This document shows, piece after piece, positions 1 through 14,061 of a stretch of DNA of 64,000 nt. Numbering within the stretch: the first letter of the stretch is position 1; the number at the start of each line of letters is the position of its first letter. Below the pieces are notes generated by a model that saw only the letters and a list, made by a program, of their open reading frames with translations, did not search any database and was not told the origin of the DNA. The translations under genes and the position numbers were made by a program. Origin of the DNA: Thiosulfatihalobacter marinus (GTDB lineage: Bacteria; Pseudomonadota; Alphaproteobacteria; Rhodobacterales; Rhodobacteraceae); contig NZ_JAECRZ010000003.1 of assembly GCF_016019955.1 (NCBI RefSeq), positions 294,892 through 358,891 of the forward strand. Reading direction: 5' to 3'.

Positions 1-122
1 TGGCCGGGCCAATCGCGGATGCCAGCGCGTTTCTGTTCAAGCACCCGCCAGAACAGATCGAAGACACTGATGCCCATGACGTGATCCTGAATTTCGTCAA
101 AGGGGACGGGGCAGGCGCCTGA
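1..122 (+). CDS. C-terminal fragment of an upstream gene, possibly an ABC-type ATPase
   Basis: This is an open frame entering from the left edge, with codons in phase from base 3 and a TGA at 120-122. The last 39 residues end in VILNFVKGDGAGA. The stop overlaps the ATG of the following reductase (TGATG), so the genes are translationally linked. The pattern 'DxxDVILNFVKGD' recalls the C-terminus of MlaF/LptB-like ABC ATPases, where a loose 'D..V..F..G' motif ends the protein. An ATPase would make sense beside the LptF/LptG-like permeases at 1835-4074. This is a weak inference from a short tail, because no Walker motif is in view. Confidence 0.35.
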   Translation, partial: AGPIADASAFLFKHPPEQIEDTDAHDVILNFVKGDGAGA

Positions 123-916
123 TGCGCCCGGCCTTTGTCACCGGCGGATCAAGCGGCATCGGACTTGCCGCTGCTGTACTGCTGGCGAAACGAGGCCATG
201 ACATTGCGCTTTTCGCCCGCGATCCGGGCCGGCTGGCGGCGGCGCGGCAGGTCATTCTTGACGCGGCGCCCGACATATCCGTGCGCGAGTTTCCCGTTGA
301 TGTCAGCGATCGCGCCGCGGTGGAAAGCGCCGTGGCCGAGGCCGTTGCGGCGATGGGCGTGCCGGGATTCGCCATTGCCAGCGCGGGCATAGCCGAACCG
401 GGCCTGTTTGCCGAACAGCCAGTCGACCTGCACGAACGCCATATGGCGATCAACTATTTCGGAGCGCTCTATTTCGTCAGAGCCCTGACCGGCCCGATGG
501 CCGATGCCGGCGGCGGCAAGGTCGGGCTGGTCTCGTCGGGGGCGGCATTTTTCGGGATCTACGGCTATTCCAGCTATGCGCCGTCGAAATTCGCGCTGCG
601 TGGATTGGGCGAAGTGCTGCATGTGGAACTGGAACCGCGGGGCATCGACGTGACGATCTGTTATCCACCCGATACCCAAACGCCAATGCTGGAGGCCGAG
701 ATGGCCACCAAGCCCGCCGCGACGGTCGAGATTACCAGGGGAGGCGGGCTTTGGCAGGCCGAGGCCGTGGCCGCCCGGCTGATCGCCGGGATGCAGGCCG
801 GACGGCTGGTGGTGGCGCCGGGTTTCCAGATGGCGGGGCTAAACCGGTTCACAAGCCTGATCGCGCCGATCCTGCGCTGGCATCAACGGCGGCTGATCCG
901 CAAGTTCAGCGAATGA
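122..916 (+). CDS. SDR-family reductase resembling 3-ketodihydrosphingosine reductase
   Basis: This is a 264-residue classical short-chain dehydrogenase. The NAD(P)-binding motif GGSSGIG lies at residues 8-14, an NAG-like 'ASAG' follows near residue 90, and the catalytic YxxxK is Y152/K156 after a serine in VSSGA. The segment CYPPDTQTPMLEAE near residue 180 matches the 'YPPDTDTP' signature of eukaryotic 3-ketodihydrosphingosine reductase (KDSR), which other SDRs usually lack. KDSR reduces the ketone of 3-ketosphinganine with NADPH. The C-terminus is basic and partly hydrophobic, as in membrane-associated KDSR. It overlaps both neighbours, and the ATGA at 913 couples it to the CdsA-like gene. 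A generic lipid-modifying SDR remains possible. Confidence 0.7.
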   Translation: MRPAFVTGGSSGIGLAAAVLLAKRGHDIALFARDPGRLAAARQVILDAAPDISVREFPVDVSDRAAVESAVAEAVAAMGVPGFAIASAGIAEPGLFAEQPVDLHERHMAINYFGALYFVRALTGPMADAGGGKVGLVSSGAAFFGIYGYSSYAPSKFALRGLGEVLHVELEPRGIDVTICYPPDTQTPMLEAEMATKPAATVEITRGGGLWQAEAVAARLIAGMQAGRLVVAPGFQMAGLNRFTSLIAPILRWHQRRLIRKFSE

Positions 917-1794
917 ACGGGCTGAGCGCCGAAGGTCTGGCGCTGACCGGGGCCGTGCTTTTGGCGGTGGGTTATGGCGTTTTGGGTGCGCTGTGGCTGA
1001 TCCCCGCGACCCGGGCGATTGCACGCGATCTGGCGCGGGTGTTTTTCAGTGCCACGATTGTGGCCGTGGTGCTGATCGCCGCCCTGCTGGCGGGCACGGC
1101 GGGGCTGGTTCTGTTGATGGTGGCCGTATCGCTGCGCGTCGGGTACGAGGCGGGCCATGTTCGTCTTGGCGCGGGGCGCCCAGCCTGGGGCATGGCGATT
1201 GTGGCATTTGGTGTGACAGCGGCGGCCATGGCAGAGCCACTGGCCGCGGTGGCGCTGGCCGGAGTGTGGCCGCTGTTATTGTTGCGCGCCCTTATGGCAC
1301 GAGGCGGCGGGACGGGACGGGGTTTGTTGGATTTGCTGGTCTTCCCGGTGATCCCGATGGCGTTGCTGGCGCATGGATTGACCGCGCCGGAATGGCGTAT
1401 TGCCAGCGCCGGGGCCTATGCGCTGGTCGAGATTTTCGACAGTTGCGCGCTGCTGGCGGGCAAGCTGTTCGGCCGGCGCAAGGCGTTTCCGGTGCTGTCA
1501 CCGGGCAAAACCGTCGAGGGGCTGATCGGTGGCGGGCTTGGGCTATTGGCGCTCAGCGCGGGGGGGGCGGTTCTGCTGGGGTTGGATGGTGGTGCGCTTA
1601 TCCTGACGGCATCGCTGGTTGCCGGGCTGGCGGTGGCGGGTGATCTGGCCGCCTCGCGGCTGAAACGCATGGCCGGGGTCAAGGATTACCCGGTCCTGAT
1701 GCGGCGCCAGGGCGGCGTGCTGGATTCGCTGGACAGCTGGATTGCCGCCGGCGCCGGGCTGGTGGCGTTGAATATTATCCTGACGTGGCTGTGA
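913..1794 (+). CDS. CdsA-like phosphatidate cytidylyltransferase family protein
   Basis: This is a 293-residue polytopic membrane protein with about eight hydrophobic segments. The C-terminal third carries the CDP-diglyceride synthase signature: SPGKTVEG, then 'SRLKRMAGVKDYP' and a terminal 'GGVLDSLDSW' in place of the usual GHGGxxDRxDS. Family members make CDP-diacylglycerol from CTP and phosphatidate at the inner membrane. The start overlaps the preceding reductase by ATGA. The position inside a lipid cluster, and the divergent signature (SLD where RxD is usual), suggest a specialised paralogue. Its substrate might be another lipid phosphate, although only the family assignment is secure. 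Confidence 0.75.
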   Translation: MNGLSAEGLALTGAVLLAVGYGVLGALWLIPATRAIARDLARVFFSATIVAVVLIAALLAGTAGLVLLMVAVSLRVGYEAGHVRLGAGRPAWGMAIVAFGVTAAAMAEPLAAVALAGVWPLLLLRALMARGGGTGRGLLDLLVFPVIPMALLAHGLTAPEWRIASAGAYALVEIFDSCALLAGKLFGRRKAFPVLSPGKTVEGLIGGGLGLLALSAGGAVLLGLDGGALILTASLVAGLAVAGDLAASRLKRMAGVKDYPVLMRRQGGVLDSLDSWIAAGAGLVALNIILTWL

Positions 1795-1834
1795 CGGGCT
1801 TGCACCGGGGGATCGCAGGGGGAATGGTTGCGCC

Positions 1835-2950
1835 ATGAGAGTTCTTCGCCCCCTCATACGGATTCTGGCGTGGCCGGTGCTGGCGCGATTGCTGGTGATC
1901 CTGGCGGTGGTCGAGGCGATTTTCCTGGCCGAGAGTTTCACGACGCTGCTGGAAGAGGCGCTGCGCAACGATGCGTTGGCGGCGGATGTGGGGATTTTGC
2001 TGGTGTTCCGAATGCCCCAGATCCTGGATCTGGCACTGGCGGTCGGGGTGTTGATCGCGGTCTATTTCGTGATCTCGGATGCGCGCAACCGGGGCGAATT
2101 GATCATCCTTGCCGCCAGCGGCATCCGGTGGCGGCAGGTGGTGATGCTGATGGTGCTGCTGGGCCTGATCGGCGGCGCGGTAAGCGTGGCGACGGCGGGA
2201 TATCTGTCGCCCTTGGCGCGCTATGCCAGCCGCATCAAGATGGCCGAGCTGAAAACCGAATACATCGTGTCGCGCATCGAACAGGCCGGGCCGTTGAACA
2301 GCCGGCAGACGATCCGCGATGTAACCTTCATTGCCACCCCGCCCAGGGATGAAAAATTCCGGCGCGGACAGTTGTTCGTGTTCCAGCCGGATGTGGACGG
2401 CCAGTGGCGCGCGGTGCAGTCCAGCAACTGGCGCGTGACCGATCCGGACAAGGACGGACAGCGCGCGATCGTTCTGGACTCGCTGTCGGCGCTGGAGGCG
2501 CGTTATCCGCGCGACGGCGCCCCCATGACCCATATCAACGCGTTCAACGTGAACCAGGCCGAGTTTGGATTTGGTCTGGCGGATGTGACCGAGGCGCCGG
2601 ACCGGGAGCGCAGCAAGGCCGAGCGGCTGCTGAATATCTCTCCGGCGCAAACCCCGCGCCTGACACGGATCGTGACGCGCGCCCTGATGGTGCCGATGGC
2701 GGCGCTGCTGGCGCTGGCGGCAATCGTGGCCGGCGGGGCCGGGATCAGGCGCTATGTGGCGCTGCCCATCGCGGCGGTGATCCTGATGGCGGGGGATGTG
2801 GCCGCGCGCTCGGTATTGGCGGGGGCGGTCGAGGCGATGTCGCCGTTCCTGCTTTTGGGGCTGGCCGTGGCGTTGTATCTTGGGCCGCCGCTGGCCTATC
2901 TGGGCTGGCGTGGCGAGGCGCTGATGATCCCGGCGGCGCGGCGGGCATGA
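1835..2950 (+). CDS. LptF/LptG-family (YjgP/YjgQ) permease, first copy
   Basis: This is a 371-residue membrane protein with the LptF/LptG layout. Three N-terminal transmembrane segments reach about residue 120, a periplasmic domain of about 140 residues follows, and three more segments lie near the C-terminus. The coupling-helix region 'SDARNRGELIILAASGIRWRQVV' (quoted in part; the core is GELIILAASG) matches the family's cytoplasmic loop, which contacts the LptB ATPase. LptF/LptG normally extract lipopolysaccharide from the inner membrane. Here the gene sits in an operon of lipid-headgroup enzymes, without lptA, lptC or an obvious lptB. A second, dedicated lipid exporter is therefore plausible. 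It overlaps the next gene by ATGA. Confidence 0.8.
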   Translation: MRVLRPLIRILAWPVLARLLVILAVVEAIFLAESFTTLLEEALRNDALAADVGILLVFRMPQILDLALAVGVLIAVYFVISDARNRGELIILAASGIRWRQVVMLMVLLGLIGGAVSVATAGYLSPLARYASRIKMAELKTEYIVSRIEQAGPLNSRQTIRDVTFIATPPRDEKFRRGQLFVFQPDVDGQWRAVQSSNWRVTDPDKDGQRAIVLDSLSALEARYPRDGAPMTHINAFNVNQAEFGFGLADVTEAPDRERSKAERLLNISPAQTPRLTRIVTRALMVPMAALLALAAIVAGGAGIRRYVALPIAAVILMAGDVAARSVLAGAVEAMSPFLLLGLAVALYLGPPLAYLGWRGEALMIPAARRA

Positions 2951-4074
2951 ACTGGCGCGCGCATACCGGCGTGGCGGTGCGCGCCATGGTGCGCGGTTAT
3001 CTTGCCGCTATCGGGTTTGTTCTGTTTGCGCTGCTTGTCATCGCGCTGTCGATCGACCTGACCGACAGCCTTGACGGGGTACGCGACCGCGCGGCGGCAA
3101 CGCAGACCCCGCTGTGGCGTGTGTTGATGCCCTATCTGGGCTATCGCGCGGTGGACATCGTGACCCGGCTTTTGGGAATGGCGGCGCTGATCGGTGCCGG
3201 GCTGGCGGCGTCGCTGCGACATCAGCGGCTGGAAGACGTTGTGTTGAGTGCCGCCGGGGCGACGCCGGGATTGATGCTGAGCGCATTGCTGATCGTGGGG
3301 GTGATCACCGGGGCGGTGCAGGCCTCGTTCCAGAACTGGCTGCGCCCGGCGGCGGTGGAACGCCAGATTGCGGCACAGTTGGGGCGGTATGGCCGTTGGT
3401 TCGGCAACACTGACCTGGAGTACCGCTGGATCACGGATGGCAGCCGCGCCATGCGGGCACAGGTAACGCGCGGTGCCGATCCGGCGTTGCGCGACATCCA
3501 GTATTTCGAGGGCATCGACACACCGGCGCTGAGCCGTGTCATCTTTGCCGAGCGGGCGGTTCCGGGCGCGCGCGACGGGGCGTGGGTTCTGGAAAACGCA
3601 ACCGAATGGGACAGCGACGCCGGGATCGGCATGGCCACGACGACGCGCGACCGGATCGGGATCGACCTGCCGCTGAACCGTGCGCGGGTGCGGTGGTTCG
3701 GGATCCATGGCTATTACATCCCCAACCCGGCCCTGAAGAAGATCGCCGGGATCGAAGGGCTGTTTGCCGCCAATGACGCGGCCACGTCGCTGGCGTTCCG
3801 GCGGATGTCCTTTTTCCTGCCCGGAATCTTTGCCTTGCTGGGCGCGAGCCTTGCGCTGGCGGGGCGGCGCGGGCGGCGCTGGGCGCCGTTTCGTCTTATG
3901 GTGCTGGCGACGGTGGGGTATGTGATCCTTGTATCGGTCAAGGTGTTCTGGGCCTTGGGGATTCACGGGCGGATTCCGCCCTACCCGGCGGCCACGATCC
4001 CGCTGGTGGTGGCGCTGTCCTTGTCGGCTTTGTTGCTGTTGCACCAGGGCGGGTATCTGCGGCGCCGCGATTAG
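2947..4074 (+). CDS. LptF/LptG-family permease, second copy
   Basis: This is a 375-residue partner of the preceding permease, starting at the overlapping ATG (ATGA at 2947-2950). It has three N-terminal transmembrane segments, a loop 'HQRLEDVVLSAAGATPG' matching the family's ATPase-contacting region, a large periplasmic domain (residues about 125-270), and three C-terminal segments. Pairs of this kind form the heterodimeric membrane core of an LPS-type ABC extractor. Its end overlaps by four bases the end of the convergent nucleotidyltransferase at 4071-4817. It is weakly similar to its neighbour apart from layout, as in LptF versus LptG. I infer a non-LPS lipid cargo from gene context alone. 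Confidence 0.75.
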   Translation: MNWRAHTGVAVRAMVRGYLAAIGFVLFALLVIALSIDLTDSLDGVRDRAAATQTPLWRVLMPYLGYRAVDIVTRLLGMAALIGAGLAASLRHQRLEDVVLSAAGATPGLMLSALLIVGVITGAVQASFQNWLRPAAVERQIAAQLGRYGRWFGNTDLEYRWITDGSRAMRAQVTRGADPALRDIQYFEGIDTPALSRVIFAERAVPGARDGAWVLENATEWDSDAGIGMATTTRDRIGIDLPLNRARVRWFGIHGYYIPNPALKKIAGIEGLFAANDAATSLAFRRMSFFLPGIFALLGASLALAGRRGRRWAPFRLMVLATVGYVILVSVKVFWALGIHGRIPPYPAATIPLVVALSLSALLLLHQGGYLRRRD

Positions 4075-4817
4075 GCGGGATCGCGGGACTGTATCACCGG
4101 CCAGACCGCTTCCACGGCACGTGCATACATTGCCTCGTTATCGATCTCGGTCCAGGCGAGATCCCTGAGCAGAACCGCCTCGATATCGGTATCCCTGGCA
4201 AGCGCGCAGACGGCATCTTCGTAATCGGCGCCGGGATTTTCGGCCAACACCGCCTGCCCGGCGGTACGCAAGGCCGCGACCTGGGGAGCGGCAAAACAGG
4301 TGATGCCCATCAGTTCGCCAAAATGCGCGCCGGTGCGCGCCGAAATGTCCTTGGACATGAAATCAAAGGCGGGTGTGCCATTCATCCCCTTGCGCGACCA
4401 GACGTAAACCTCGTCTGTGGCGCCTGTCTTGCCCGACACCATCAGCCGCGTGACACCGGGTTCCACGGGCGACAGGGCGCGCGATTCGTAGATCACGTCG
4501 GATTCCAGCAACACCACATGGCCCGTCAGCCCATCCAGCCCGGTCAACAGGGATTTCAGGCTGCCGGTTTCGGCATAGGCGGGGTTGTGGATCAATTCGA
4601 CATCCGGCTGCCCGCCAAAGTGATCGCGGTACTGATCGTCCAGATGTCCGGTCACGATGCGAATGCGGGGAATGCCGCGGGCGCGCAGCAAATTGATGGA
4701 GCGGGCCACCAGCGGCACCCCGTCGATTTCCAGCAGGCCCTTTGGCCTGAGTTGCCCCCGGGGCCCCATGCGGATGCCACGCCCGGCAGCAAGGATCAGT
4801 GCGCTCAAATCTACCAT
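4071..4817 (-). CDS. Sugar/alcohol-phosphate nucleotidyltransferase (LicC/PntC-like)
   Basis: This is a 248-residue NTP transferase with the nucleotide-binding N-terminal motif LILAAGRGIRMGPRG followed by RPKGLLEIDG. A mid-region 'NPAYAETGSLKSLL' and 'VLLESDVIYE' (metal-binding Asp) are typical of cytidylyltransferases acting on phosphocholine, aminoethylphosphonate or inositol-1-phosphate. Such enzymes make CDP-alcohols. The gene runs opposite to its neighbours and is divergent from a CDP-alcohol phosphotransferase (4907), whose donor it could supply. The exact alcohol phosphate cannot be read from the sequence. Caulobacter makes ceramide phosphoglycerate lipids with a cytidylyltransferase of this general kind, which is a useful precedent. 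Confidence 0.75.
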   Translation of the reverse strand: MVDLSALILAAGRGIRMGPRGQLRPKGLLEIDGVPLVARSINLLRARGIPRIRIVTGHLDDQYRDHFGGQPDVELIHNPAYAETGSLKSLLTGLDGLTGHVVLLESDVIYESRALSPVEPGVTRLMVSGKTGATDEVYVWSRKGMNGTPAFDFMSKDISARTGAHFGELMGITCFAAPQVAALRTAGQAVLAENPGADYEDAVCALARDTDIEAVLLRDLAWTEIDNEAMYARAVEAVWPVIQSRDPA

Positions 4818-4906
4818 GTTGCCCGTGTCCGAAAGCCAGTAAGAATGAGCCGGACCCTATGTGAGGCCGGTGGCATCCGCAAGCCACCCGAACCGGAGGA
4901 CTTTCC
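4818..4906. promoter_or_regulatory. Divergent promoter region with a hairpin
   Basis: These 89 bases separate the minus-strand nucleotidyltransferase from the plus-strand phosphotransferase and must hold both promoters or their leaders. An inverted repeat GGTGGC (4869-4874) / GCCACC (4883-4888) with an eight-base loop precedes the GGAGG ribosome-binding site of the 4907 gene. No clear -35/-10 pair stands out. Confidence 0.4.
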
Positions 4907-5575
4907 ATGGCCCATTCCCTGCGGCAGGTGGCCGCGGCCAATCGAGAAACCGCGCGGGCGGAGAAGCTCAGCAACTGGTCGGTCTATCTGTTGTATCGCC
5001 ACCCCGGAACGGTGTTGGCGTGGCTTCTGCTGAAGACACGGCTTAGCCCCACCAACGTGTCGGTCATCGGGCTGGGTGTGGCGGGTTTGATGCCGCTGGT
5101 TGCCGGGCTTTTGCCGATCGGCGCGGCGGGCATCGTGCTGTTCTGGCTGGCGGTGCTGTTCCAGATCCTGGATTGCAGCGACGGTGCCATGGCGCGCGCC
5201 GGGGGTACGGGCAGCGCGGCGGGCGCGCGCTATGATTTCCTGATCGATATGTTCCAGTGGGGTGTTCTTTATGCCTCGATGGGACTGCTGGCGGACCGGA
5301 TGGCGGATGGCGGCGCGTTCTGGACCATGCTGGGCTTTGCCGCCGGGTGGCTGCGGCTGTTTGCGCGGGTGTGCAACGACGCGGCCCCCGAAAAGACCAC
5401 CGCGCCGGAGGGGGCGAGCCTGCGATTGGGCAGCTTGATGTGGTTTCTCAATGGTCTGAGCGGGCTGATCCCCCTGTTGTTGCTTTCGGGGCCTTACATG
5501 TATGTGGCCGTTATCGCGGTGCTGGTTTACAGCATCGGCGACGTTCTGGATGCCTTGAGCCGGGTTGTTGAATGA
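4907..5575 (+). CDS. CDP-alcohol phosphatidyltransferase family protein, first copy
   Basis: This is a 222-residue integral membrane enzyme. The full CDP-alcohol phosphotransferase signature is visible: DCSDGAMAR, then GARYDFLID, which fits D-x2-D-G-x2-A-R ... G-x3-D-x3-D. The four aspartates bind two metals and the CDP moiety. About six transmembrane segments follow a soluble N-terminal helix of about 45 residues. The enzyme moves a phospho-alcohol from a CDP-alcohol, or a phosphatidyl group from CDP-diacylglycerol, to an acceptor. A strong GGAGG lies eight bases before the ATG. It overlaps the glycosyltransferase by ATGA. The second copy at 8321 indicates two transfer steps or two substrates. 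Confidence 0.85.
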   Translation: MAHSLRQVAAANRETARAEKLSNWSVYLLYRHPGTVLAWLLLKTRLSPTNVSVIGLGVAGLMPLVAGLLPIGAAGIVLFWLAVLFQILDCSDGAMARAGGTGSAAGARYDFLIDMFQWGVLYASMGLLADRMADGGAFWTMLGFAAGWLRLFARVCNDAAPEKTTAPEGASLRLGSLMWFLNGLSGLIPLLLLSGPYMYVAVIAVLVYSIGDVLDALSRVVE

Positions 5576-6705
5576 AAATCGTTCAGATCACACCCTATGC
5601 GATGGACCGCCCCGGCGGGGTGCAATCGCACATTCGCGACCTTGCCACCTGGCTGCGGCTTCGCGGCCATGACGTGCGCATCGTGGCGCCGCCGGGCGAC
5701 GCGGACGTACCGGGGCTGATGACGCTTGGCGCCTGCCGGTCGGTATCGTTGCATGGCACCCGGTTCGAGCTGACGCGGGCACGGCGGGCCGAACTGGCGG
5801 ATTGTGTCGAACGGTTGCGCGCCTGGGGCGCAGAGGTTACGCATCTGCACACACCCTGGACACCGATGCTGCCATGGCAGGTGTGGCGCGCGCTGGATCT
5901 GCCTTCGGTCGCGACATTCCACGCAACATTGCCCGCGACAACCGGGCTGGACCCGGTGGCGTGGTTCCTGCGCCAAAGCGCGCATCGCTTCAACAGGCAC
6001 CTGAAGGCGGTGGTGGTGCCATCGCGCGCACCGCTTGCGCAATGGCGTGCCGCCGGGGCCGATCCCCTGCCCCGCATCCTGCCCCCGGCGGTGGATCTGA
6101 CGGAGTGGCGCAAGGCGGCAGAGCAGGCCCGCCCGGGCACCGGTTTGCGGGCGATCTATATGGGGCGCCTTGAAGAGCGCAAGGGCGTTGCCGTCTTGCT
6201 GGAAGCGTGGAAGCGGGTGCACGAGGAGCGGCCTGACGCCAGGCTGACCATCGCCGGCAGCGGCCCCGAAGAAGGCCTGCTGCGCAACCGGGTGATCCAC
6301 TCCAACATCGGCGGCGTCAGCTTTGCGCCGCCGCCGGACAACGCGGCGGCGCGCGAAATGGTGGCGGCGGCGGATCTGTTCATCGCGCCGGCCCTGCATG
6401 GCGAGAGTTTCGGGCTGGTTCTGGCCGAAGCCATGGCGGCGGGCACGGTGCCCGTGGCGGCGGCCAATGCCGGGTTTGCGACGGTTCTGACGGGGGCGGG
6501 GCAGGGCCTGTTGGTACCACCGGGCGAAACCTGGCCACTGGCGCGCAGGATTCTGGATCTGGCAGAGCATCCGGCCAGGCTGGAGCAAATGCGGCGCTGG
6601 GCGATGAGCCAGGCGCAGCGGTTCGATATCGCGACCGTGGGACCGTCCTATGAGGCGCTGTTTGCCGAGGCTCTGGGCGGAACGCGGTTGCCAAATAAGC
6701 AATAA
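5572..6705 (+). CDS. GT4-family glycosyltransferase
   Basis: This 377-residue protein has a GT-B fold. The N-terminal glycine-rich acceptor loop is seen in 'MDRPGGVQSHIRDLATWL', with H at about residue 18. The C-terminal donor domain has 'YMGRLEERKGVAVLLEAW' and the E-x7-E motif in 'HGESFGLVLAEAMAAG' (near residues 275-290). GT4 enzymes use nucleotide sugars to glycosylate lipids, as in phosphatidylinositol mannosyltransferases. It overlaps the upstream CDP-alcohol phosphotransferase by four bases, so the pair probably acts in sequence: headgroup addition, then sugar transfer. There is no signal peptide, so it should act at the cytoplasmic face. Confidence 0.85.
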   Translation: MKIVQITPYAMDRPGGVQSHIRDLATWLRLRGHDVRIVAPPGDADVPGLMTLGACRSVSLHGTRFELTRARRAELADCVERLRAWGAEVTHLHTPWTPMLPWQVWRALDLPSVATFHATLPATTGLDPVAWFLRQSAHRFNRHLKAVVVPSRAPLAQWRAAGADPLPRILPPAVDLTEWRKAAEQARPGTGLRAIYMGRLEERKGVAVLLEAWKRVHEERPDARLTIAGSGPEEGLLRNRVIHSNIGGVSFAPPPDNAAAREMVAAADLFIAPALHGESFGLVLAEAMAAGTVPVAAANAGFATVLTGAGQGLLVPPGETWPLARRILDLAEHPARLEQMRRWAMSQAQRFDIATVGPSYEALFAEALGGTRLPNKQ

Positions 6706-6768
6706 CCGTGCCAGACCGATCAGGCGGGCCGTGGCGCATCCAGGGCAAAAGTAATTCGGAACAGGGTA

Positions 6769-8295
6769 TTGGTGCACGGCGATCTGGTGATTTCAGCGGA
6801 TTTCGGCACGTCGGGTGTCAAGGTCGGCGTGGTGGATGGCGATCTGCGGCTGTTGGCGCGCACGACCGAGAGTTATCCCTTGCATTTGTCGCCGCCGGGC
6901 GGTGCCGAGCAGGTGCCCGACGATTGGTGGGCCGCGCTGGTACGGGCGCTGGGCGTGCTGCACGCGCAGGTGCCGGATCTTGATACGCGCGCCGGGGCGC
7001 TGGTGTTCTGTGCCCAGGCCTGTGGCGTGATCTGCGTGGATGCGCGGGGCATGGTGCTGCGCAACTGCCTGACCTGGATGGACAAGCGCGCGGTGCGTCA
7101 GGGACGACGGATTGTGGGCGGCTGGCCCGCGGTGCGGGGCTATCGCGTTGACAAGGGGCTGACCTGGCTGGCGCTGGCCAATGGGGCGCCCGCGCAGAAC
7201 GGCATGGACCCGACCGCCAAGCTGGTATGGTTGCAGGAGAACGAGCCCGATCTGTTCGCCCGCACACGCTGGGTTCTGGATGTGCGCGACTGGCTGGTGT
7301 ATCGCGCCACCGGTGAAATCACGACCTGCCCCGAAAGCGCCAATCTGAGCTGGATCATGAACACGCGCGCCGGGCGCGAGGGCTGGTCGCCCAGGCTGGC
7401 GCGCATGGCGGGAATCCCGCTGGACAGGATGCCGCCGATCGTGATGGGGCATGTGCCGGTGGGCCTGTTGCGCCCCGACGCGGCGGCCGAACTGGGGCTG
7501 ACGGCGCCCGTCCAGGTGGCCGGCGGCACGGTGGATGTGACCGCCGCCGCGCTGGGCACTGGCGAGGTACAGGACGGGGCGCTGCATATCAGCGTGGCCA
7601 CAAGCGCGTGGATTGCGGGTTTTTTCGACGGGCGGCGCGTCAGCATCCCGCATGCCTATGCCACGATCACCTCGGGGCTGGACTATCGCCCGCTGCTGAT
7701 CGCAAGCCAGGAAAACGCCGGATCGGCGCTGGAATGGGCGGCGAGGGCCACGGCGGGCGCTTTCCCCCCCGACATGGCGGCGGATGGCGCGCTGCGGGCC
7801 GATGACCCGGTGTTCCTGCCCTGGATGACGGGCGAGCGGGTGCCGGTGGATGATGACCGGCTGAGAGGCACGTTCCACGGACTGGGGCTGGAGCATGACG
7901 GCGCGGCGCTGCGCCGGAGCGTGGCGGAAGGTGTGGCCCAGAACCTGCGCTGGGCCTTTGGCAAGGTGATCCGGGAACGCGGCGCGCGGCGCGACGGGCC
8001 GGTTGCGATGGTGGGTGGCGCGGCAGCCAATCCGGGCTTTGCCCAGCTGATGGCCGATACGCTGAACCGCGAAGTTCGCGTGGGCGCGGCGCGCCATGCC
8101 GGGGTATTGGGTGCGGCAACGCTGGCGGCGCCGATGATGGGCTGGGCAAATTCGCCGGAGGCGGCGGCGGAGCGTCTGCAAGGGCGGGTGACGGCCAGCT
8201 ATCACCCCGATGCGGCGCGCGCGGAACTGCTGGCAAACCGCGCCGCGCGTCTTGACAGGCTGCGGGGCGACGTGATCCGAAGCTATCGGCGCTGA
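6769..8295 (+). CDS. FGGY-family carbohydrate kinase
   Basis: This is a 508-residue protein of the usual FGGY length. The N-terminal phosphate loop is 'ISADFGTSGVKVGVVDG' (near residues 5-21), and the C-terminal domain ends with 'GGAAANPGFAQLMADTL', the adenosine-binding region. The family phosphorylates xylulose, glycerol, ribulose and related polyols with ATP. The start is TTG at 6769 or GTG at 6772; there is no ATG nearby. The gene is flanked by two CDP-alcohol phosphotransferases, so it may supply a polyol phosphate for activation by the cytidylyltransferase. Substrate identity is inferred only at the level of sugar or polyol. Confidence 0.85.
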   Translation: MVHGDLVISADFGTSGVKVGVVDGDLRLLARTTESYPLHLSPPGGAEQVPDDWWAALVRALGVLHAQVPDLDTRAGALVFCAQACGVICVDARGMVLRNCLTWMDKRAVRQGRRIVGGWPAVRGYRVDKGLTWLALANGAPAQNGMDPTAKLVWLQENEPDLFARTRWVLDVRDWLVYRATGEITTCPESANLSWIMNTRAGREGWSPRLARMAGIPLDRMPPIVMGHVPVGLLRPDAAAELGLTAPVQVAGGTVDVTAAALGTGEVQDGALHISVATSAWIAGFFDGRRVSIPHAYATITSGLDYRPLLIASQENAGSALEWAARATAGAFPPDMAADGALRADDPVFLPWMTGERVPVDDDRLRGTFHGLGLEHDGAALRRSVAEGVAQNLRWAFGKVIRERGARRDGPVAMVGGAAANPGFAQLMADTLNREVRVGAARHAGVLGAATLAAPMMGWANSPEAAAERLQGRVTASYHPDAARAELLANRAARLDRLRGDVIRSYRR

Positions 8296-8320
8296 CGCGG
8301 GGCACAGGAAGGGCAAGAGC

Positions 8321-8932
8321 ATGATCGACGGACTGTTGAAATCGAAGATCGATCCGATCTGGGAAGCGATGTCCACGCCGCTTGTGCGTGCCGGGCTGAC
8401 CCCCAATCAGGTGACATTTGCCGGGCTGGTCCTGATTCTTGTGGCCTCGGGCGCCTATCTTCTGCACGGGCTGGCATTGATATATGGCATCTCGCTTGCC
8501 TTTGCTTTTGCCTTTGACGCGCTGGATGGCGCGGTGGCGCGGCGCACGGGGCTTTCAAGCCGCGCCGGTGGCTATTTCGATGCCATGGTGGACCGGTATC
8601 AGGAATTGATCGTGCTGGCGGCGATTGCGCTGGTGAATGACCAGTGGCCGCTGGCGCTGGCCTGTTTTTCGGGCAGCGTCATTACATCCTATGCCAAGGC
8701 TCGCACGGCGCTTGAGATCGAGGTGAGCAACGATGACTGGCCCGATTTCTTCGAGCGGCTGGAGCGGGTGATCTACCTGTGCGCCATGCTGATCGGCGCC
8801 GGTGTGCTGGGCGGTTGGGTGATCACGCTTGGGCTGACGGGGTTCGCAATCCTGTCGCATTTGACCGCGCTGCAACGGATGCGCCGGGCCACCGCGCTTT
8901 TGCGCGCCGTCGACGATCAGGCGCGCAAATAG
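8321..8932 (+). CDS. CDP-alcohol phosphatidyltransferase family protein, second copy
   Basis: This is a 203-residue membrane protein carrying the signature as 'AFDALDGAVARRTG' followed by 'GGYFDAMVDRYQE'. It is closer to phosphatidylinositol-phosphate or archaetidylinositol synthase types (D-x2-D-G-x2-A-R-x8-G-x3-D-x3-D) than the first copy, and it has no extended N-terminus. About five to six transmembrane helices are visible. A GGAAGG site precedes the ATG. It lies 25 bases after the kinase and is the last plus-strand gene of the run. Its 3' end overlaps by 16 bases the convergent membrane-protein gene at 8917. The acceptor could be an inositol phosphate or another polyol phosphate. Confidence 0.85.
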   Translation: MIDGLLKSKIDPIWEAMSTPLVRAGLTPNQVTFAGLVLILVASGAYLLHGLALIYGISLAFAFAFDALDGAVARRTGLSSRAGGYFDAMVDRYQELIVLAAIALVNDQWPLALACFSGSVITSYAKARTALEIEVSNDDWPDFFERLERVIYLCAMLIGAGVLGGWVITLGLTGFAILSHLTALQRMRRATALLRAVDDQARK

Positions 8933-9669
8933 CGGCCCAGTGCCAGCACGCTTTCCGGGATCCATGCCAGAAAATACAACAGAAAGGACGAGATCAGCAG
9001 CAATTCGACCGAGACATAGGTTTGATACAGCAGGGGCGCGGCAGGGCCGGTATCAAGATCCTTGACGATAAAGAGCGCAAGATAGGCCACGCCCAACGCT
9101 GCCGGAACCAGGATCAGCCAACGCCGAAACCGGCAGGTGGCCACACCCAGGAGCCGGCCGCGCAGCGGCGGCGCATCGCAGCTGCGCGACAGCATTTCGC
9201 CAATGAACACCGCGAAGGCCTGGGAAAAGAAGAACAGATAGCTGCCGGCCATATGCAGGGCGTTGTGGGTGGGAAAGCGGAACTGGCTGAGCATCACCAT
9301 TCCGACCGAGGCCAGCGCCTGAAGCAGGATGACCACTCCGGACAGCCCCACGATCCATCCCAGCTGGCCACGTGGCATGGCCCCGGCCTGACGCCTGGCC
9401 GATCGCACGAGCACCGTCATAAGCACGGCAACGGCAATGAACAGCAAAGGCGCGCTTATCAACATCCAGTTGGCAAACGGCTCGCCCACCGCCGGTTCGG
9501 ATATGGCCCGGCTGATTGTGGGGGGCTTGCGCGCGACATAATCCGGGCGCAGCAGGGCAAAGCTCCACCGGGATGTATAGATCAGGTAGTTGACCACCGT
9601 GGCGACAAAGACCGTGAACACGATGGAACACACCAGCGCGACGGCACCAAGCCGGGATACCGGGCTCAT
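8917..9669 (-). CDS. Six-helix membrane protein, Frag1/DRAM/Sfk1-like
   Basis: This is a 250-residue protein with about six transmembrane segments. I chose the ATG at 9669 because it overlaps the upstream ABC gene stop as ATGA. The first periplasmic loop contains 'PTISRAISEPAVGEPFANW', which resembles the 'PYISDTG..P...iF' motif of the Frag1/DRAM/Sfk1 family. A later helix begins 'HNALHMAGSYLFFF', like that family's conserved His-containing helix. Eukaryotic members (PGAP2, Cwh43 N-terminus) act in lipid remodelling of GPI anchors, including ceramide exchange. That link is suggestive in this neighbourhood, but the assignment is by eye and the function is unknown. Confidence 0.5.
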   Translation of the reverse strand: MSPVSRLGAVALVCSIVFTVFVATVVNYLIYTSRWSFALLRPDYVARKPPTISRAISEPAVGEPFANWMLISAPLLFIAVAVLMTVLVRSARRQAGAMPRGQLGWIVGLSGVVILLQALASVGMVMLSQFRFPTHNALHMAGSYLFFFSQAFAVFIGEMLSRSCDAPPLRGRLLGVATCRFRRWLILVPAALGVAYLALFIVKDLDTGPAAPLLYQTYVSVELLLISSFLLYFLAWIPESVLALGRYLRA

Positions 9670-11426
9670 GCGAGGGCCTTTCGATTGGGTTGCCGTAGAT
9701 CGGAAATCACCTTGCCACCTTCCATCTTGATCAGCCGGTCGCATTTGGAAAACTGGTGGTCGTCATGGGTGACGGCCAGCACCAACCGCCCCGACGCGGA
9801 CAATTCCGGCACCAGCACGTCATAAAAGAACGCCCGGTTGGCCGGATCCTGATCGGCGGCGAATTCGTCCAGAACGATGATCGGGCGCTGCTCGGCCAGC
9901 GCCACGGCGAGCGCCAGCCGGCGGCTTTGCCCGGCGGAAAGCGACGTCGAGGAAAAACGGTCATCGTGCAGTTGCACCCGGCTGGACAGGCCCAGCTGGG
10001 CAATACGGGTTTCCAGCGCGCGCAGTTCGTCCGAGTTCATGCCATAGGCACGATCAAAGAGGTGAAACCCGCTGAAAACGCCCGAGAACAATTCGCGATA
10101 CACCGATGTTGTGTCCTCGGTCAGGGGGGCGCCGTCCAGCAGGATCTCGCCCTGCTCGGGGTGGCGCAAGCCGGTGATCAGCGACAGGAGCGTGGTCTTG
10201 CCCGACCCGTTGCCGCCACAGATGAACACGGTTTCGCCGGGGCGAAAGGACAGATCGATGGGACCAAGGTGAAACGCCTCGGCATCGGGTTTTTCCAGTT
10301 CGCGAACCGTCGCGGTGACGCCCTTGAGTTCGATACTGTCGAATCGTTGCTGCGGCGTGGCCGGGGTTTTGAGCGATTTCGATTGCGCGTTTTCCAGGGT
10401 CTCTTCGATCTTCTGGATCTTGTAATAGGCGTTTTCGGCCCGCGACAGGCGCGGCATCAGATTGAACAGCAGTTCGATTGGCCCGGTCGTAAGGAACACG
10501 ATGGTCAGGACCTGGAACATCACCGTGGTATCGCCGCCCTGGATCAGCGGGATTGCGATGACCACGAAACACAGCAGCATGATGACCGCGCTTTGGCTGA
10601 CGATGGCATTGCCCGCGAACAGCCGTTCGACCTTGCGCCGCACGGCCATGTGTTCGGCGATGGTGTCCAGCACTTCGGCCTCGAGCGCGGCACGGCGGGT
10701 GCCACGCTGACGCAATTCGCGCCAACCGGCAAGCATGTCCCCGACACGGTCGCAATACTGCGCGAAAAGCTGGGAAGAGCGCAGGTTGTGACGGCGGGCG
10801 GGCATATCAAGCACGAAATAGCTGATCATGCCCAGGACCACGGCGAAGATCGCGGCCATGCCCGCGCTCCAGGATACGTAGAACAGGTAGGGCACGGCGA
10901 TGGCCAGCACGATGACGGCCTCGACCGCTTCGATCACGTTGATGACCGAATTGGACAATTCGCCCACCTCGTTCGTCATCGCGGCATAAACCTGGCCATG
11001 CGGGCTGGACGACAGGAAATCGACATTGGCGCGCAGCAGGCGCCGCGCCATGCGGTTGCGCAGCGCGGCGACGATCCGTGTGGTCAGGATAAAGGCGCGC
11101 AGGCGTTTGTAATAGCCCGCCGCCAGCAAAGTTGCGGCCGACGCCAGCAAAAACAGCACCGACCATCCCATGCCCTGGTCCGCCGTGCGGGCGGTTTCGT
11201 TGATGGCAAATATCATGCCAGAGCGGCTGAAGCTGGCCAGCAGCGTGAGCACGACAATCGGGTCGCGGATCACGCCGCTTGTGACAAGCAGAAAGCGCAG
11301 CACGGTCACACGGCGCGCGATCATGGCCGAAAGGCCGCGTTCTTCGGGGTCGGGAATTTTCCTGAGGTCGATCTTCACGGCAGTCTCGGAGTGGTTCGGG
11401 GGCACGCTAGCGGCTTTGTCGCTCAT
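9666..11426 (-). CDS. SyrD/PvdE-like ABC exporter (fused permease-ATPase)
   Basis: This is a 586-residue half-transporter. Six transmembrane segments occupy residues about 45-320 and the ATPase about 365-586. The Walker A is GGNGSGKT, the signature is LSAGQSRR, and Walker B is IIVLDEFAADQDP. The segment 'ELFSGVFSGFHLFDRAYG' between Walker A and the signature is typical of the cyclic-peptide/siderophore exporters SyrD and PvdE. Such proteins work as homodimers, flipping amphipathic molecules across the inner membrane. It is coupled by ATGA to the glycosyltransferase upstream and the membrane protein downstream. No peptide synthetase is nearby, so a glycolipid or lipopeptide cargo is possible. 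Confidence 0.8.
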   Translation of the reverse strand: MSDKAASVPPNHSETAVKIDLRKIPDPEERGLSAMIARRVTVLRFLLVTSGVIRDPIVVLTLLASFSRSGMIFAINETARTADQGMGWSVLFLLASAATLLAAGYYKRLRAFILTTRIVAALRNRMARRLLRANVDFLSSSPHGQVYAAMTNEVGELSNSVINVIEAVEAVIVLAIAVPYLFYVSWSAGMAAIFAVVLGMISYFVLDMPARRHNLRSSQLFAQYCDRVGDMLAGWRELRQRGTRRAALEAEVLDTIAEHMAVRRKVERLFAGNAIVSQSAVIMLLCFVVIAIPLIQGGDTTVMFQVLTIVFLTTGPIELLFNLMPRLSRAENAYYKIQKIEETLENAQSKSLKTPATPQQRFDSIELKGVTATVRELEKPDAEAFHLGPIDLSFRPGETVFICGGNGSGKTTLLSLITGLRHPEQGEILLDGAPLTEDTTSVYRELFSGVFSGFHLFDRAYGMNSDELRALETRIAQLGLSSRVQLHDDRFSSTSLSAGQSRRLALAVALAEQRPIIVLDEFAADQDPANRAFFYDVLVPELSASGRLVLAVTHDDHQFSKCDRLIKMEGGKVISDLRQPNRKALA

Positions 11427-12406
11427 GTGCCACCCGCCTTCATTGTCGGCCCGCCCACCTGCCAGCGATCGCCATAGTGGCGAATGGCACGGGTGTTGTT
11501 GCGGTCTTCGGGATCTCCGCCGCCATTGTTGATACGCGACAGGGCAGTCAGCCGGTAATGCGCGGCACGCGCCTTGGGCAGGCAGCTCAGGCCGCGATTG
11601 GGAATGACATCGATCGGTGCCAGGCAGAGCGCGCTGGAGCGCACATCGTCCACCAGGAACGCGGCGCGGGGGGTATCGGAAAAATCGGCAAGATCGGTCT
11701 GGTCGAAGAACCGCGGGCGCACGGCATAGCCGAACACACCCAGGAACACATCCACGGTGCGCGCCCGACGCAGCCGGTGGCCGCGCAGCGGCGCGGGCGG
11801 GCGTTGCAGCAGGTTGGACAGGACAGTGGTGGGCCGGTCGGTCAGATCGGCGGGCACGATCCAGCCAGCCATGGTCAGCGCCCTGTCCGGGGTTTCGGCG
11901 GCGGCGCGTTCGAAGGTTTCCAGGAAATCCGCCGGGTAGATCCGATCATCGTCCACAACCACGATCAGCTGGTCGGGATCGGCGGTCAGCACCGTGGGGA
12001 TCAGCTTGGTCGCCGGGCCCCAATCCCTGCCCCGCCGGATTTCCACCGAGGCAAGGCCCGCCAGATGCGCGGGAATGTCATAGCCGGTTTCCTCGCGCAG
12101 GGAATGGTCCGGCACGTTCAGCACGATACGGGCCGGTGGGCGGGTCTGGGCCAGCAGCCCCTTGAGCACCGTATCGATATGGGCGATGCGGCTGGGGATC
12201 GTGGTGAGCGACACGACGATGTCGGCCTTGTCAGCCGAGGCCCAGAACGACTCGAGCGTGGCCAGATCAACCCGGGACAGGCGCCATTCGCGGATCAGGT
12301 CCGGCAGGAACCGCTCGCCTTCGAACAGGTGGTGCAGCCAATAGGCGGCGGCAAGGGCCGCCAGCACCGCTGCGAAAAAAATCAACACGTTGTCGCCGTC
12401 CGCCAT
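11423..12406 (-). CDS. Membrane-anchored GT-A type glycosyltransferase-like protein
   Basis: This is a 327-residue protein starting at the ATG at 12406, followed at once by one transmembrane anchor (residues 5-25). The soluble part opens with 'DIVVSLTTIPSRI' (near residue 63), has 'DWGPATKLIPTV', and then 'VVVDDDRIYPADFLETF', an acidic DDD motif that could bind a metal and nucleotide sugar. This matches an uncharacterised glycosyltransferase family with the 'SLTTiPsR..GP.tK....DDD..Y' pattern. Its stop overlaps the ABC exporter start (ATGA at 11423-11426), so sugar addition and export are probably coupled. Donor and acceptor are unknown. A start at 12475 would add a basic leader without further support. 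Confidence 0.6.
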   Translation of the reverse strand: MADGDNVLIFFAAVLAALAAAYWLHHLFEGERFLPDLIREWRLSRVDLATLESFWASADKADIVVSLTTIPSRIAHIDTVLKGLLAQTRPPARIVLNVPDHSLREETGYDIPAHLAGLASVEIRRGRDWGPATKLIPTVLTADPDQLIVVVDDDRIYPADFLETFERAAAETPDRALTMAGWIVPADLTDRPTTVLSNLLQRPPAPLRGHRLRRARTVDVFLGVFGYAVRPRFFDQTDLADFSDTPRAAFLVDDVRSSALCLAPIDVIPNRGLSCLPKARAAHYRLTALSRINNGGGDPEDRNNTRAIRHYGDRWQVGGPTMKAGGT

Positions 12407-12495
12407 GATTTCGTGGCGCGTGGGCTTGGCAACTGGCCAATCGCGCCCGGCACCGGTTAAATGGGTCCAGAGCAATTAACCGCTGGACCCCGCCA
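12407..12495. promoter_or_regulatory. Divergent promoter region with two interleaved inverted repeats
   Basis: This region lies between the divergent genes at 12406 (minus) and 12496 (plus). The dyad CGGTTAA (12454-12460) / TTAACCG (12476-12482) interleaves with a second dyad GGGTCCAG (12463-12470) / CTGGACCC (12483-12490). The second arm pair ends five bases before the ATG of the plus gene. Both dyads are perfect. They could be operators, or two mutually exclusive hairpins in the plus-strand leader. Confidence 0.55.
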
Positions 12496-14061
12496 ATGCA
12501 AAGGCCCAATGACGCTATTTTCGTGACCGGCGCCGATGCGGGGTTCGCGCGCTGCCTGTATCAGCAGCTGCGCGGTGTCGCGCGCATCGGCTGGCACACC
12601 GGTGCGCGCTGGATTGTTTTCGACATGGGCATGACACCCGCGCAGGTGGCCGATCTGCAAGCCCGGTTCGGCTGGGCAGAGTGGCGGCGCCTGCCGCTTG
12701 AGGATCTGCCACCGCATTATGTGCCGTCCAGTGGATCTTATGCGTTCAAGCCCCATATCCTGCGCGAGGTGATGGCCGAGGCAGGCGGCCCGGTGATCTG
12801 GAGCGACAGCGCCAACCTGCCGCGCGGAGCGCCTGACGCGATGCTGGACCATGTGCGCCGCCACGGGTTCTACATCCTGCGGGGGCAAGCCCCGTTGCAG
12901 GAGCGTTGTGACCCGTCCATCCTGGAACGGATCGGCACCCCGCGATGGACATGGGGGATGCGCGAATGCGTCGCCTGTTTCCTGGGGTTTGACGCGGGCA
13001 ACCCGCAAATGCGTGCCCTGATCGACAGCTGGGCGGACTGGGCTACGCATGAGGACGTGCTGTGCCCGCCCAACAGCATTCCCCGGCACATGAACGATCA
13101 GGCGGTGCTGAACGCGCTGCTGGCCGGGCCGGTCTGCAAGGGCGAGATCGTGCTGCCCGAACGCGACGTGGATATCAGCTCGGGCAATCCGGCGCGGTTC
13201 CTGTCCACGCGCAACAAGGTCAAACCCGGCCTGCCCCATTGGTGCGATCCGCTGGCGCGGCTTTACTGGCGCGTTTACAAGGTGGCGGATCAGGCCGCGC
13301 ATCGGCGCGCGGCCCGCGCGCGCGCCCGTACACCGGCGGCGGCAACGCGCATCACCGTACAGACGCGCGATGGCGGGCAGTATGAAGTACCGCTACCCGC
13401 CGGGACACCATGGTCGCATCCGGTTTTGGCACCCGGCCATGTCTTGCTGCGGGAAGGGGCCGGATCGGTCGCCGTTTCGTTGCCCGATGGTAATGCGCAG
13501 CCGGTGCCGCTGGCCGGTCTGGCGGCGGTTTTTCACCATGAAGGCAGGATATGTGCGGTGACAGAGCCACAGGGACGGGGCGACGTTACGCTTTGGCGGT
13601 GTGACGATTTTCCCGGAAAGTGGCGGCAATGGAAAACCGTGGTGAACAATGTTTCGTGCCGGGGCAGCAGCGTTTTCGGGCATGACGGGCGCTGGTGGCT
13701 GATCACGGCGATGGAAAGCCCGTTCAGCGACGGCAGCTATCGCTATCTTGCCCTGTTTCACACGGACGACCCGGTCAACGGCACCTGGCAGGCCCATCCG
13801 GTGAACGCGGACGGGCCGGGCATCACCGCGCGGGACGGTGTTGGCGAGACCGTGGGGGCGGTGTTTCATTGGCAAGGCAGGTTGCTGCGCTGTGCGCGTG
13901 CACCGGGCGGCGGGATCACGCCATACGCCATGACGCTGACCCCGGACCGGTTCACGCAAAGCACCCTGCCCCCGCCACCCCGCCTTGAAGCCGCGTGCGG
14001 CGCCGGGGCCATCCGCGTGGCCGTCAGCGACGAACTGGTGGTCTGGGAACACGCCATCTAG
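12496..14061 (+). CDS. Two-domain protein: DUF1647-like glycosyltransferase plus GINT1_N-like beta-propeller
   Basis: This is a 521-residue protein. The N-terminal half (about 1-260) starts 'DAIFVTGADAGF', has 'ARWIVFDMGMTP', 'SYAFKPHILREVM' and 'VIWSDSANLP', and resembles the DUF1647 group of glycosyltransferase-like proteins. The C-terminal half (about 290-521) is rich in W, D and G: 'NVSCRGSSVFGHDGRWWL', 'FHTDDPVNGTWQAHPVN', 'GAVFHWQGRLLRCAR'. This fits the five-bladed propeller found at the N-terminus of plant glucosamine inositolphosphorylceramide transferase (GINT1_N). No transmembrane segment is seen. In this lipid locus it may add or recognise the headgroup sugar of an inositol-type sphingolipid. 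Domain calls are by pattern only. Confidence 0.55.
   Translation: MQRPNDAIFVTGADAGFARCLYQQLRGVARIGWHTGARWIVFDMGMTPAQVADLQARFGWAEWRRLPLEDLPPHYVPSSGSYAFKPHILREVMAEAGGPVIWSDSANLPRGAPDAMLDHVRRHGFYILRGQAPLQERCDPSILERIGTPRWTWGMRECVACFLGFDAGNPQMRALIDSWADWATHEDVLCPPNSIPRHMNDQAVLNALLAGPVCKGEIVLPERDVDISSGNPARFLSTRNKVKPGLPHWCDPLARLYWRVYKVADQAAHRRAARARARTPAAATRITVQTRDGGQYEVPLPAGTPWSHPVLAPGHVLLREGAGSVAVSLPDGNAQPVPLAGLAAVFHHEGRICAVTEPQGRGDVTLWRCDDFPGKWRQWKTVVNNVSCRGSSVFGHDGRWWLITAMESPFSDGSYRYLALFHTDDPVNGTWQAHPVNADGPGITARDGVGETVGAVFHWQGRLLRCARAPGGGITPYAMTLTPDRFTQSTLPPPPRLEAACGAGAIRVAVSDELVVWEHAI

Follow-up and report, generated by a model that had tools for sequence, protein, structure and literature searches.

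This report concerns a gene cluster of Thiosulfatihalobacter marinus (Rhodobacteraceae) that lies at the start of a 64,000-nucleotide stretch of DNA (the window; contig C33, positions 294892-358891) in a 4.16 Mb genome of 99.8% completeness, and that probably makes and exports a glycosyl-inositol phospholipid. Such chemistry would resemble that of mycobacteria and of eukaryotic glycosylphosphatidylinositol (GPI) anchors.

Each part of the cluster has a precedent. With BT_1522-1526 of Bacteroides thetaiotaomicron, as described in the excerpt of PMC9246714, it shares a myo-inositol-phosphate synthase (MIPS), a CDP-alcohol phosphotransferase of the phosphatidylinositol-phosphate (PIP) synthase type and a link to sphingolipids, the PgpA-type phosphatase of that system being common only to some relatives of the present cluster; the locus adds a CdsA copy, a PimA-like GT4 glycosyltransferase, a Frag1-family protein, an FGGY-family kinase, a DUF4833 protein, an ABC exporter and an LptF/LptG pair. 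A Bacteroides-type AUR1-like inositolphosphoceramide synthase had no Pfam match among the 17 locus proteins scanned (window genes and upstream ones). With mycobacterial phosphatidylinositol mannoside (PIM) synthesis it has PIP synthase-like and PimA-like enzymes and MIPS in common, whereas here the host is Gram-negative, Lpt-type export genes are present and the anchor may be sphingoid. Caulobacter CC_1168-CC_1152 (excerpts of PMC11324152 and, for CpgD, PMC12275187) also has a second LptF/LptG pair, a cytidylyltransferase and an alpha-oxoamine synthase (AOS), but is described with phosphoglycerate head groups, a ceramide kinase and LptC2, and without MIPS or a PimA-like enzyme in those excerpts; the AOS found here lies outside the curated alphaproteobacterial serine palmitoyltransferase (SPT) family, and CpgB and CpgD were compared by description. 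Eukaryotic GPI remodelling (PGAP2, CWH43; excerpt of PMC7125958) likewise combines a glycosylated inositol phospholipid with a Frag1/PGAP2-family protein, and a GINT1_N-like domain recalls GINT1, the plant glycosyltransferase of glycosyl inositol phosphorylceramides (GIPC); the likeness to GPI and GIPC is at family level and implies no protein anchoring. No publication describing this cluster, the combination of its parts or the tie of Frag1 and DUF4833 to it was found among the openly licensed papers searched, in line with a preliminary description of the locus that knew of no pathway joining them all.

The inositol head group

MIPS stands directly upstream, which makes inositol the likely head group, and the joint presence of MIPS, a PIP-synthase-like CDP-alcohol phosphotransferase (phosphotransferase 2) and a PimA-like GT4 points to a glycosylated inositol phospholipid as the likely product. 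The phospho-polyol lipid of the preliminary description, glycosylated and moved outward, is thereby supported, with inositol as the likely polyol. The best relative of phosphotransferase 2 in the PDB is PIP synthase 6h53, and DxxDGxxAR..GxxxDxxxD, SYAKAR and ERxER are invariant in 6/6 aligned relatives; SYxKAR and ERxER are what we take to be PIP synthase motifs. Enzymes of this type take inositol phosphate, leaving a phosphate for later removal. A PgpA-family protein is most probably the PIP phosphatase of Bacteroides (PMC9246714, excerpt), and PgpA genes are present in six loci of the cluster described here (L033, L039, L045, L046, L047 and L052).

The match of the GT4 protein to PimA runs across residues 1-359, the next non-PIM enzyme in the PDB reaching only 53.3 bits; by this full-length similarity the protein is PimA-like, with phosphatidylinositol and GDP-mannose as candidate substrates. 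The FGGY kinase is xylulokinase-like (235 bits, cut-off 380), adjoins phosphotransferase 2 in every locus where both were seen, and may supply it with inositol or polyol phosphate.

Gene order and conservation

The 13 reading frames of the preliminary description are all present at the positions it gave, most of its family names hold in Pfam, and the gene set is real. Its KDSR-like reductase is confirmed at the level of a short-chain dehydrogenase, no specific NCBIfam equivalog having been reached; of its two CDP-alcohol phosphotransferases, the second is confirmed and the first falls below the Pfam cut-off while keeping DxxDGxxAR..GxxxDxxxD; its second glycosyltransferase is present as a frame, the family having been assigned by eye. 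The ATGA-type couplings are found as four-base overlaps at 913/916, 2947/2950, 5572/5575 and 11423/11426. DUF4833 and MIPS, upstream of the window, overlap by four bases too, and the Frag1 frame would share the same overlap with the stop of the ABC gene if it started at codon 26 (9669). The last base of MIPS is the first base of the start codon of the dehydrogenase, and the cluster extends about 3.5 kb upstream of the window through MIPS, DUF4833 and AOS.

Co-occurrence was counted in one sample of 149 genomes of the family. MIPS has a match at E<=0.001 in seven of them: in six the value is 2.1e-166 or lower, and the seventh match is partial (7.2e-5). For phosphotransferase 2, 23 genomes match at E<=1e-6, of which those six reach E<=1e-77 and the remaining 17 stay at E>=3e-9. 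Frag1 was found in six, again the same. AOS-superfamily proteins occur in 145 of the 149 at E<=1e-40, with at least 55% identity only in five of the six cluster genomes and 45% as the next best value outside these five; in G100 the gene is split over two contig ends, and in the sixth genome, G095, the AOS relative is only 42% identical. In G126, MIPS is separated from phosphotransferase 2 and Frag1, which are on a different contig; the MIPS contig continues with other genes, so that joint presence there is not close linkage.

The five other family genomes with close MIPS share a basic order, with losses: AOS, DUF4833, MIPS, dehydrogenase, CdsA-like, LptF, LptG, cytidylyltransferase (opposite strand), phosphotransferase 1, GT4, FGGY, phosphotransferase 2, Frag1, ABC. 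In the G095 stretch, four genes are missing (AOS, dehydrogenase, cytidylyltransferase, phosphotransferase 1); G100 lacks phosphotransferase 1; the stretch in G126 lacks the part from FGGY to ABC. Among the best 80 MIPS loci in named genomes, of which the nearest are mostly from Shimia, 33 have at least three other cluster genes (Shimia, Pseudooceanicola, Stappia, Maritimibacter, Salinihabitans, Psychromarinibacter, with rearranged versions in Aestuariivirga and other alphaproteobacteria); in the other 47, which include archaea, Aquificota and Omnitrophota, MIPS is in different settings or on short contigs. The order is thus kept across the Rhodobacteraceae and beyond, the synteny comparison proposed in the preliminary description having come out in its favour, and the gene set stands above chance level because it is syntenic in other genomes. 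The cluster is real, conserved and coherent.

DUF4833, MIPS, CdsA, LptF, LptG, GT4, FGGY, phosphotransferase 2, Frag1 and ABC are present in 13/13 fully covered loci, AOS and the dehydrogenase in 12/13, the cytidylyltransferase in 6/13 and phosphotransferase 1 in 3/13. These 13 (L023-L027, L029 taken with L017, L030, L032, L019, L020, L021, L142 and L004) were chosen post hoc from 41 rows as those with both cluster ends within the fetched stretch; since many stretches stop 10 kb from MIPS, absences elsewhere are not proof. L017/L029, L018/L035 and L020/L038 are identical records, and L143 shares a contig with L033; gene-family counts refer to 35 loci, after removal of L035, L038, L050, L053, L054 and L057.

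In L141:8086-11906, from a genome that shares the phylum but is not listed under this class, phosphotransferase 2, GT4, Frag1 and a CdsA-like gene are adjacent at a contig end, possibly a minimal core. Other alphaproteobacterial MIPS neighbourhoods, assigned by eye, hold a 299-aa CDP-alcohol-phosphotransferase-like protein, a membrane protein that resembles a flippase and, at about 816 aa, an RND-like exporter (L061:9977-16830, a Hyphomonadaceae metagenome-assembled genome; L079:9974-20345, unclassified). In Altererythrobacter (L068:7476-11904), the neighbours of MIPS are a nucleotidyltransferase gene and one resembling CDP-alcohol phosphotransferases, in a region of polysaccharide export genes.

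Table 1 Features of the cluster. Plain positions are those of the window; L004 is the record of this locus that includes the genes upstream of it. Scores are in bits.
Feature	Position	Strand	Match or remark
Methyltransferase-like gene, 163 aa	L004:564-1055, outside window		PF12692
Alpha-oxoamine synthase (AOS)	L004:1235-2458, outside window; listed frame from 1109		PF00155
DUF4833 protein, 210 aa, hydrophobic N-terminus	L004:2464-3096, outside window		PF16117 85.6, cut-off 23.1
MIPS, 3' end	1..122; whole gene C33:293892-295013 = L004:3093-4214	+	PF01658 120.8, cut-off 27
Short-chain dehydrogenase/reductase, candidate 3-keto-base reductase	122..916	+	PF00106 122.8
CdsA-like CTP-dependent cytidylyltransferase, second divergent copy	913..1794, within longer listed frame	+	PF01148 (CTP_transf_1) 91.7
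LptF-like permease, second copy	1835..2950	+	PF03739 48.5, cut-off 27.9
LptG-like permease, second copy	2947..4074	+	PF03739 92.3, cut-off 27.9
PntC/LicC-type cytidylyltransferase, accessory	4071..4817	-	NTP_transf_3 above Pfam cut-off
CDP-alcohol phosphotransferase 1, accessory	4907..5575	+	PF01066 19.1, below cut-off 22; motif intact
PimA-like GT4 glycosyltransferase	5572..6705	+	GT4-type Pfam above cut-off; PDB: PimA 133.0
FGGY-family kinase	6769..8295	+	PF00370, PF02782
CDP-alcohol phosphotransferase 2, PIP-synthase-like	8321..8932	+	CDP-OH_P_transf above cut-off
Frag1/DRAM/Sfk1 (PGAP2) family membrane protein	8917..9744, start possibly 9669	-	PF10277 39, cut-off 30.3
Fused ABC exporter, candidate flippase	9666..11426	-	PF00005, PF00664
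Unclassified protein, glycosyltransferase by eye	11423..12475	-	No Pfam or NCBIfam match
Glycosyltransferase, GT8-like N-terminal half and GINT1_N-like C-terminal part	12496..14061	+	PF24793 37.4, cut-off 27

A PF06253 gene follows downstream of 14061, and oligopeptide-transporter-like genes (by eye) lie further upstream of the cluster on the opposite strand. Relatives of the 11423-12475 protein occur in L017, L052, L053, L056 and L115. The best Foldseek match of the 12496-14061 protein is LgtC (E 1.4e-7), over the GT8-like front half, the model being reliable mainly for about residues 5-215 and poor beyond about residue 270. Of the 35 loci, 12 include a Stealth-family phosphotransferase (PF11380; for example L020:13922-14893), which the window lacks.

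Lipid anchor, remodelling and export

A sphingoid anchor is plausible in Shimia-type bacteria, and the inositol core is independent of it. The closest PDB structure to the AOS is SPT 3a2b (218.5 bits), and an AOS of at least 54% identity is present in 12 of 20 genomes examined around cluster or MIPS loci. Relatives at 40-50% identity adjoin a polyketide synthase (PKS)-like protein of 2,391-2,542 aa in seven of eight fetched surroundings (L108-L114), the PKS having been recognised by eye and length, with only that of Caballeronia annotated as such; around the eighth, L115, are genes for MIPS, dehydrogenase, GT4 and FGGY. Pairs of PKS-like protein and AOS recur in alphaproteobacteria, the AOS frame of L113 itself not being listed and the annotated pair lying on a Caballeronia plasmid. 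In a capsule gene region of an Acidisoma plasmid (L148:13157-15942), an AOS (47.6% identical) is flanked by a short-chain dehydrogenase on one side and a fatty-acid hydroxylase on the other, with no PKS, as one would expect of sphingoid-base synthesis; the dehydrogenase there shares only 27% identity with the one in the window.

A fatty-acid-desaturase-family gene is present in six loci, and a ketoacyl synthase, in some cases with MaoC or PlsC-type genes, also in six (L021, L045-L049). Replacement of the AOS by ketoacyl synthase and PlsC was considered and rejected: three of these six genomes (G436, G437, G439) hold an AOS of 54-58% identity, so the ketoacyl synthase is not a clean replacement, and the other three are without a close AOS. 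No small frame resembling an acyl carrier protein (ACP) was seen by eye near the AOS. A search with PF04339, which we take to be tied to Caulobacter CerS, gave one strong match, at C33:205048, about 86 kb from the cluster and indistinguishable from a housekeeping relative.

PF10277 unites Frag1, DRAM and Sfk1, and Frag1 is presumably PGAP2. Ten of 12 aligned relatives of the window's Frag1 protein match the family independently; comparison of its profile with solved structures gave nothing meaningful. PGAP2 is needed for GPI lipid reacylation, its acyltransferase role itself being unclear, and in yeast the switch from diacylglycerol to ceramide depends on CWH43, whose N-terminal part is the counterpart of PGAP2 (PMC7125958, excerpt). 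The tight co-occurrence of Frag1 with inositol-lipid genes fits a predicted role in the remodelling of inositol lipids, whether or not an AOS is present. Across 398 genomes of the phylum, Frag1 was matched at E<=0.001 in ten and above the cut-off in five; three of the five lie within this cluster (G000, G170, G686), that in G571 adjoins phosphotransferase 2, GT4 and a CdsA-like gene, and that in G509 has no such neighbours within the 3.6 kb examined. G603, the one genome looked at of the five below the cut-off, has no such neighbours either.

The cluster LptF and LptG pass the Pfam family and do not reach the canonical lipopolysaccharide-export equivalogs TIGR04407 and TIGR04408 (75.1 of 230 and 91.8 of 240 bits). 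A stronger LptF/LptG pair on C11 (207.4 and 201.8 bits) and a stronger CdsA on C64 (PF01148 164.4 bits) make the cluster copies look specialised. In Caulobacter, the phosphosphingolipid cluster has a second LptC, LptF and LptG, proposed to transport those lipids (PMC11324152, excerpt). DUF4833 was considered as an Lpt bridge with the beta-jellyroll fold of LptA and LptC, and neither was among the matches listed; nothing on DUF4833 was found among the openly licensed papers searched.

Proposed pathway, competing products and meaning

Gene content, synteny, co-occurrence and family assignment are results of the analysis; from them we infer the substrates, the order of steps, the sphingoid anchor, the roles of Frag1 and FGGY and the destination as follows. 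Inositol phosphate would come from MIPS and a CDP-activated lipid from the cluster's own CdsA-like enzyme; phosphotransferase 2 would couple them to lipid-phospho-inositol-phosphate, and a PgpA-type phosphatase, encoded in the clusters of several relatives and not in this window, would remove the phosphate. The PimA-like GT4 would then attach the first sugar to inositol and other transferases would extend it, while the cytidylyltransferase and phosphotransferase 1, present only in some clusters, may add a further phospho-alcohol. A sphingoid-type base would probably come from AOS and the dehydrogenase, and the lipid anchor may be swapped or remodelled by the Frag1/PGAP2-family protein. Flipping of the product would fall to the ABC exporter, and the second LptF/LptG pair, presumably using the housekeeping LptB and bridge proteins, would deliver it to the outer membrane. 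This pathway as a whole is, on balance, probable. A bolder form, in which a Gram-negative lipid like GPI and GIPC would be built on a diacylglycerol-type CDP-lipid base, exchanged by the PGAP2/Cwh43-family protein for a sphingoid anchor from the PKS-lineage AOS and carried to the surface by the second Lpt permease pair, is unlikely.

Several observations weigh against the proposal. The AOS reaches none of the curated NCBIfam SPT models (271.7 of 640, 264.5 of 500 and, for the alphaproteobacterial family, 205.4 of 670 bits), whereas a Prevotella SPT passes (659.7 of 640); in a FastTree tree built from 19 sequences, one of them an SPT, the cluster AOS fall within the PKS-linked radiation and are separate from Kbl, BioF, an ALAS-like protein and that Prevotella protein, although they could still act as SPT. 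Eight of the 20 genomes are without a close AOS, which leaves room for an anchor that is not sphingoid, and Pfam identified no ceramide synthase, ACP, lipid kinase, LptB or LptC among the 17 locus proteins. MIPS stays below the mycothiol-type equivalog TIGR03450 (374.8 of 638 bits). Phosphotransferase 2 stays below all three curated equivalogs, namely archaetidylinositol-phosphate synthase NF040950 (117 of 180 bits), PIP synthase NF045883 (77.5 of 170) and the BT1523 family NF052561 (68.8 of 350), and is therefore named PIP-synthase-like and not filed as a member. The want of a PgpA gene in the window counts here as well, as do an FGGY kinase that is not needed if MIPS provides inositol phosphate, and an ABC exporter that, amid lipid genes, scores above the cut-off of the cyclic-peptide-export model TIGR01194 (299.1 of 286.2 bits); lipid data for these strains were not found among the openly licensed papers searched. 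The preliminary description is accordingly supported in part: its upstream check yielded an SPT-like AOS and no recognisable ACP, ceramide synthase or LptB-like ATPase, and its ceramide or sphingolipid base has that AOS in its favour, with the SPT models and the eight genomes against it.

An ordinary diacylglycerol-based phosphatidylinositol glycolipid, similar to PIM, with AOS and dehydrogenase as passengers or serving a separate molecule, is possible though somewhat unlikely. It would suit the eight genomes with an inositol core and no close AOS, the PlsC-type acyltransferase and ketoacyl synthase genes of some loci, and a locus in which no lipid kinase was seen that could phosphorylate a sphingoid base for the CdsA-like enzyme; it sits badly with the presence of AOS and dehydrogenase, in the same run of overlapping genes, in 12/13 fully covered loci, and with the three of six ketoacyl-synthase genomes that also hold a close AOS. 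The cytidylyltransferase at 4071 bears on two further proposals. With MIPS, an NTP transferase and a CDP-alcohol phosphotransferase in one cluster, and a family that includes inositol-phosphate cytidylyltransferase, it might make CDP-inositol from the MIPS product, from which phosphotransferase 1 would move phosphoinositol onto a ceramide-like acceptor, a route proposed for Prevotella (PMC9246714, excerpt). Its best PDB match is, however, PntC (6pd1, 91.5 bits), and a profile search gives PntC 172.9 bits along the full length, while inositol-phosphate cytidylyltransferase 2xme gets 33.3 and covers only residues 4-115, the N-terminal half; the enzyme is PntC-like and not clearly CDP-inositol-forming, and both it and phosphotransferase 1 are accessory (6/13 and 3/13 loci) whereas MIPS is in 13/13. 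The CDP-inositol route is improbable, and the CDP-polyol step of the preliminary description finds no support, the inositol step looking instead like CDP-lipid plus inositol phosphate. PntC E104 and E196, reported to face the amine of aminoethylphosphonate (PMC6697681, excerpt), align with E105 and E200 of the 4071 enzyme, invariant in 5/5 relatives, which together with the PntC likeness would favour a phosphonolipid or phosphonoglycan made via CMP-aminoethylphosphonate; the phosphoenolpyruvate mutase model TIGR02320 had no match at E<=0.001 in the genome, such a product is hardly to be credited, and phosphoethanolamine or another phospho-alcohol is the better guess for the substrate.

Caulobacter CpgD, of the same broad family, forms CDP-glycerate (PMC12275187, excerpt), and a ceramide phosphoglycerate (CPG2-like) pathway would account for a cytidylyltransferase next to a second LptF/LptG pair, as found there (PMC11324152, excerpt). 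CPG2 synthesis, as those excerpts describe it, has no use for MIPS or for enzymes of the PIP-synthase-like and PimA-like kinds, and ceramide kinase, CerR and CerS were not recognised in the locus; the Caulobacter precedent named in the preliminary description holds for the second LptF/LptG pair, and a CPG2-type product is very improbable. MIPS and a GT4 also begin mycothiol synthesis. This, with the TIGR01194 match, would be compatible with a product that is soluble, be it a thiol akin to mycothiol, a di-inositol-phosphate solute or a cyclic peptide for export, which we regard as most improbable: the GT4 is PimA-like and gives only 59.8 of 462.5 bits with the mycothiol model MshA, no peptide synthetase was found by Pfam among the 17 locus proteins, and the LptF/LptG and CdsA-like genes indicate a lipid.

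If the proposal of a glycosyl-inositol phospholipid is true, it would predict a new class of surface glycolipid for marine Rhodobacteraceae and would add another instance in which a second LptF/LptG pair is tied to a lipid other than lipopolysaccharide. It would also give DUF4833 a testable setting and provide a simple bacterial system in which the function of PGAP2/Cwh43-family proteins could be tested.

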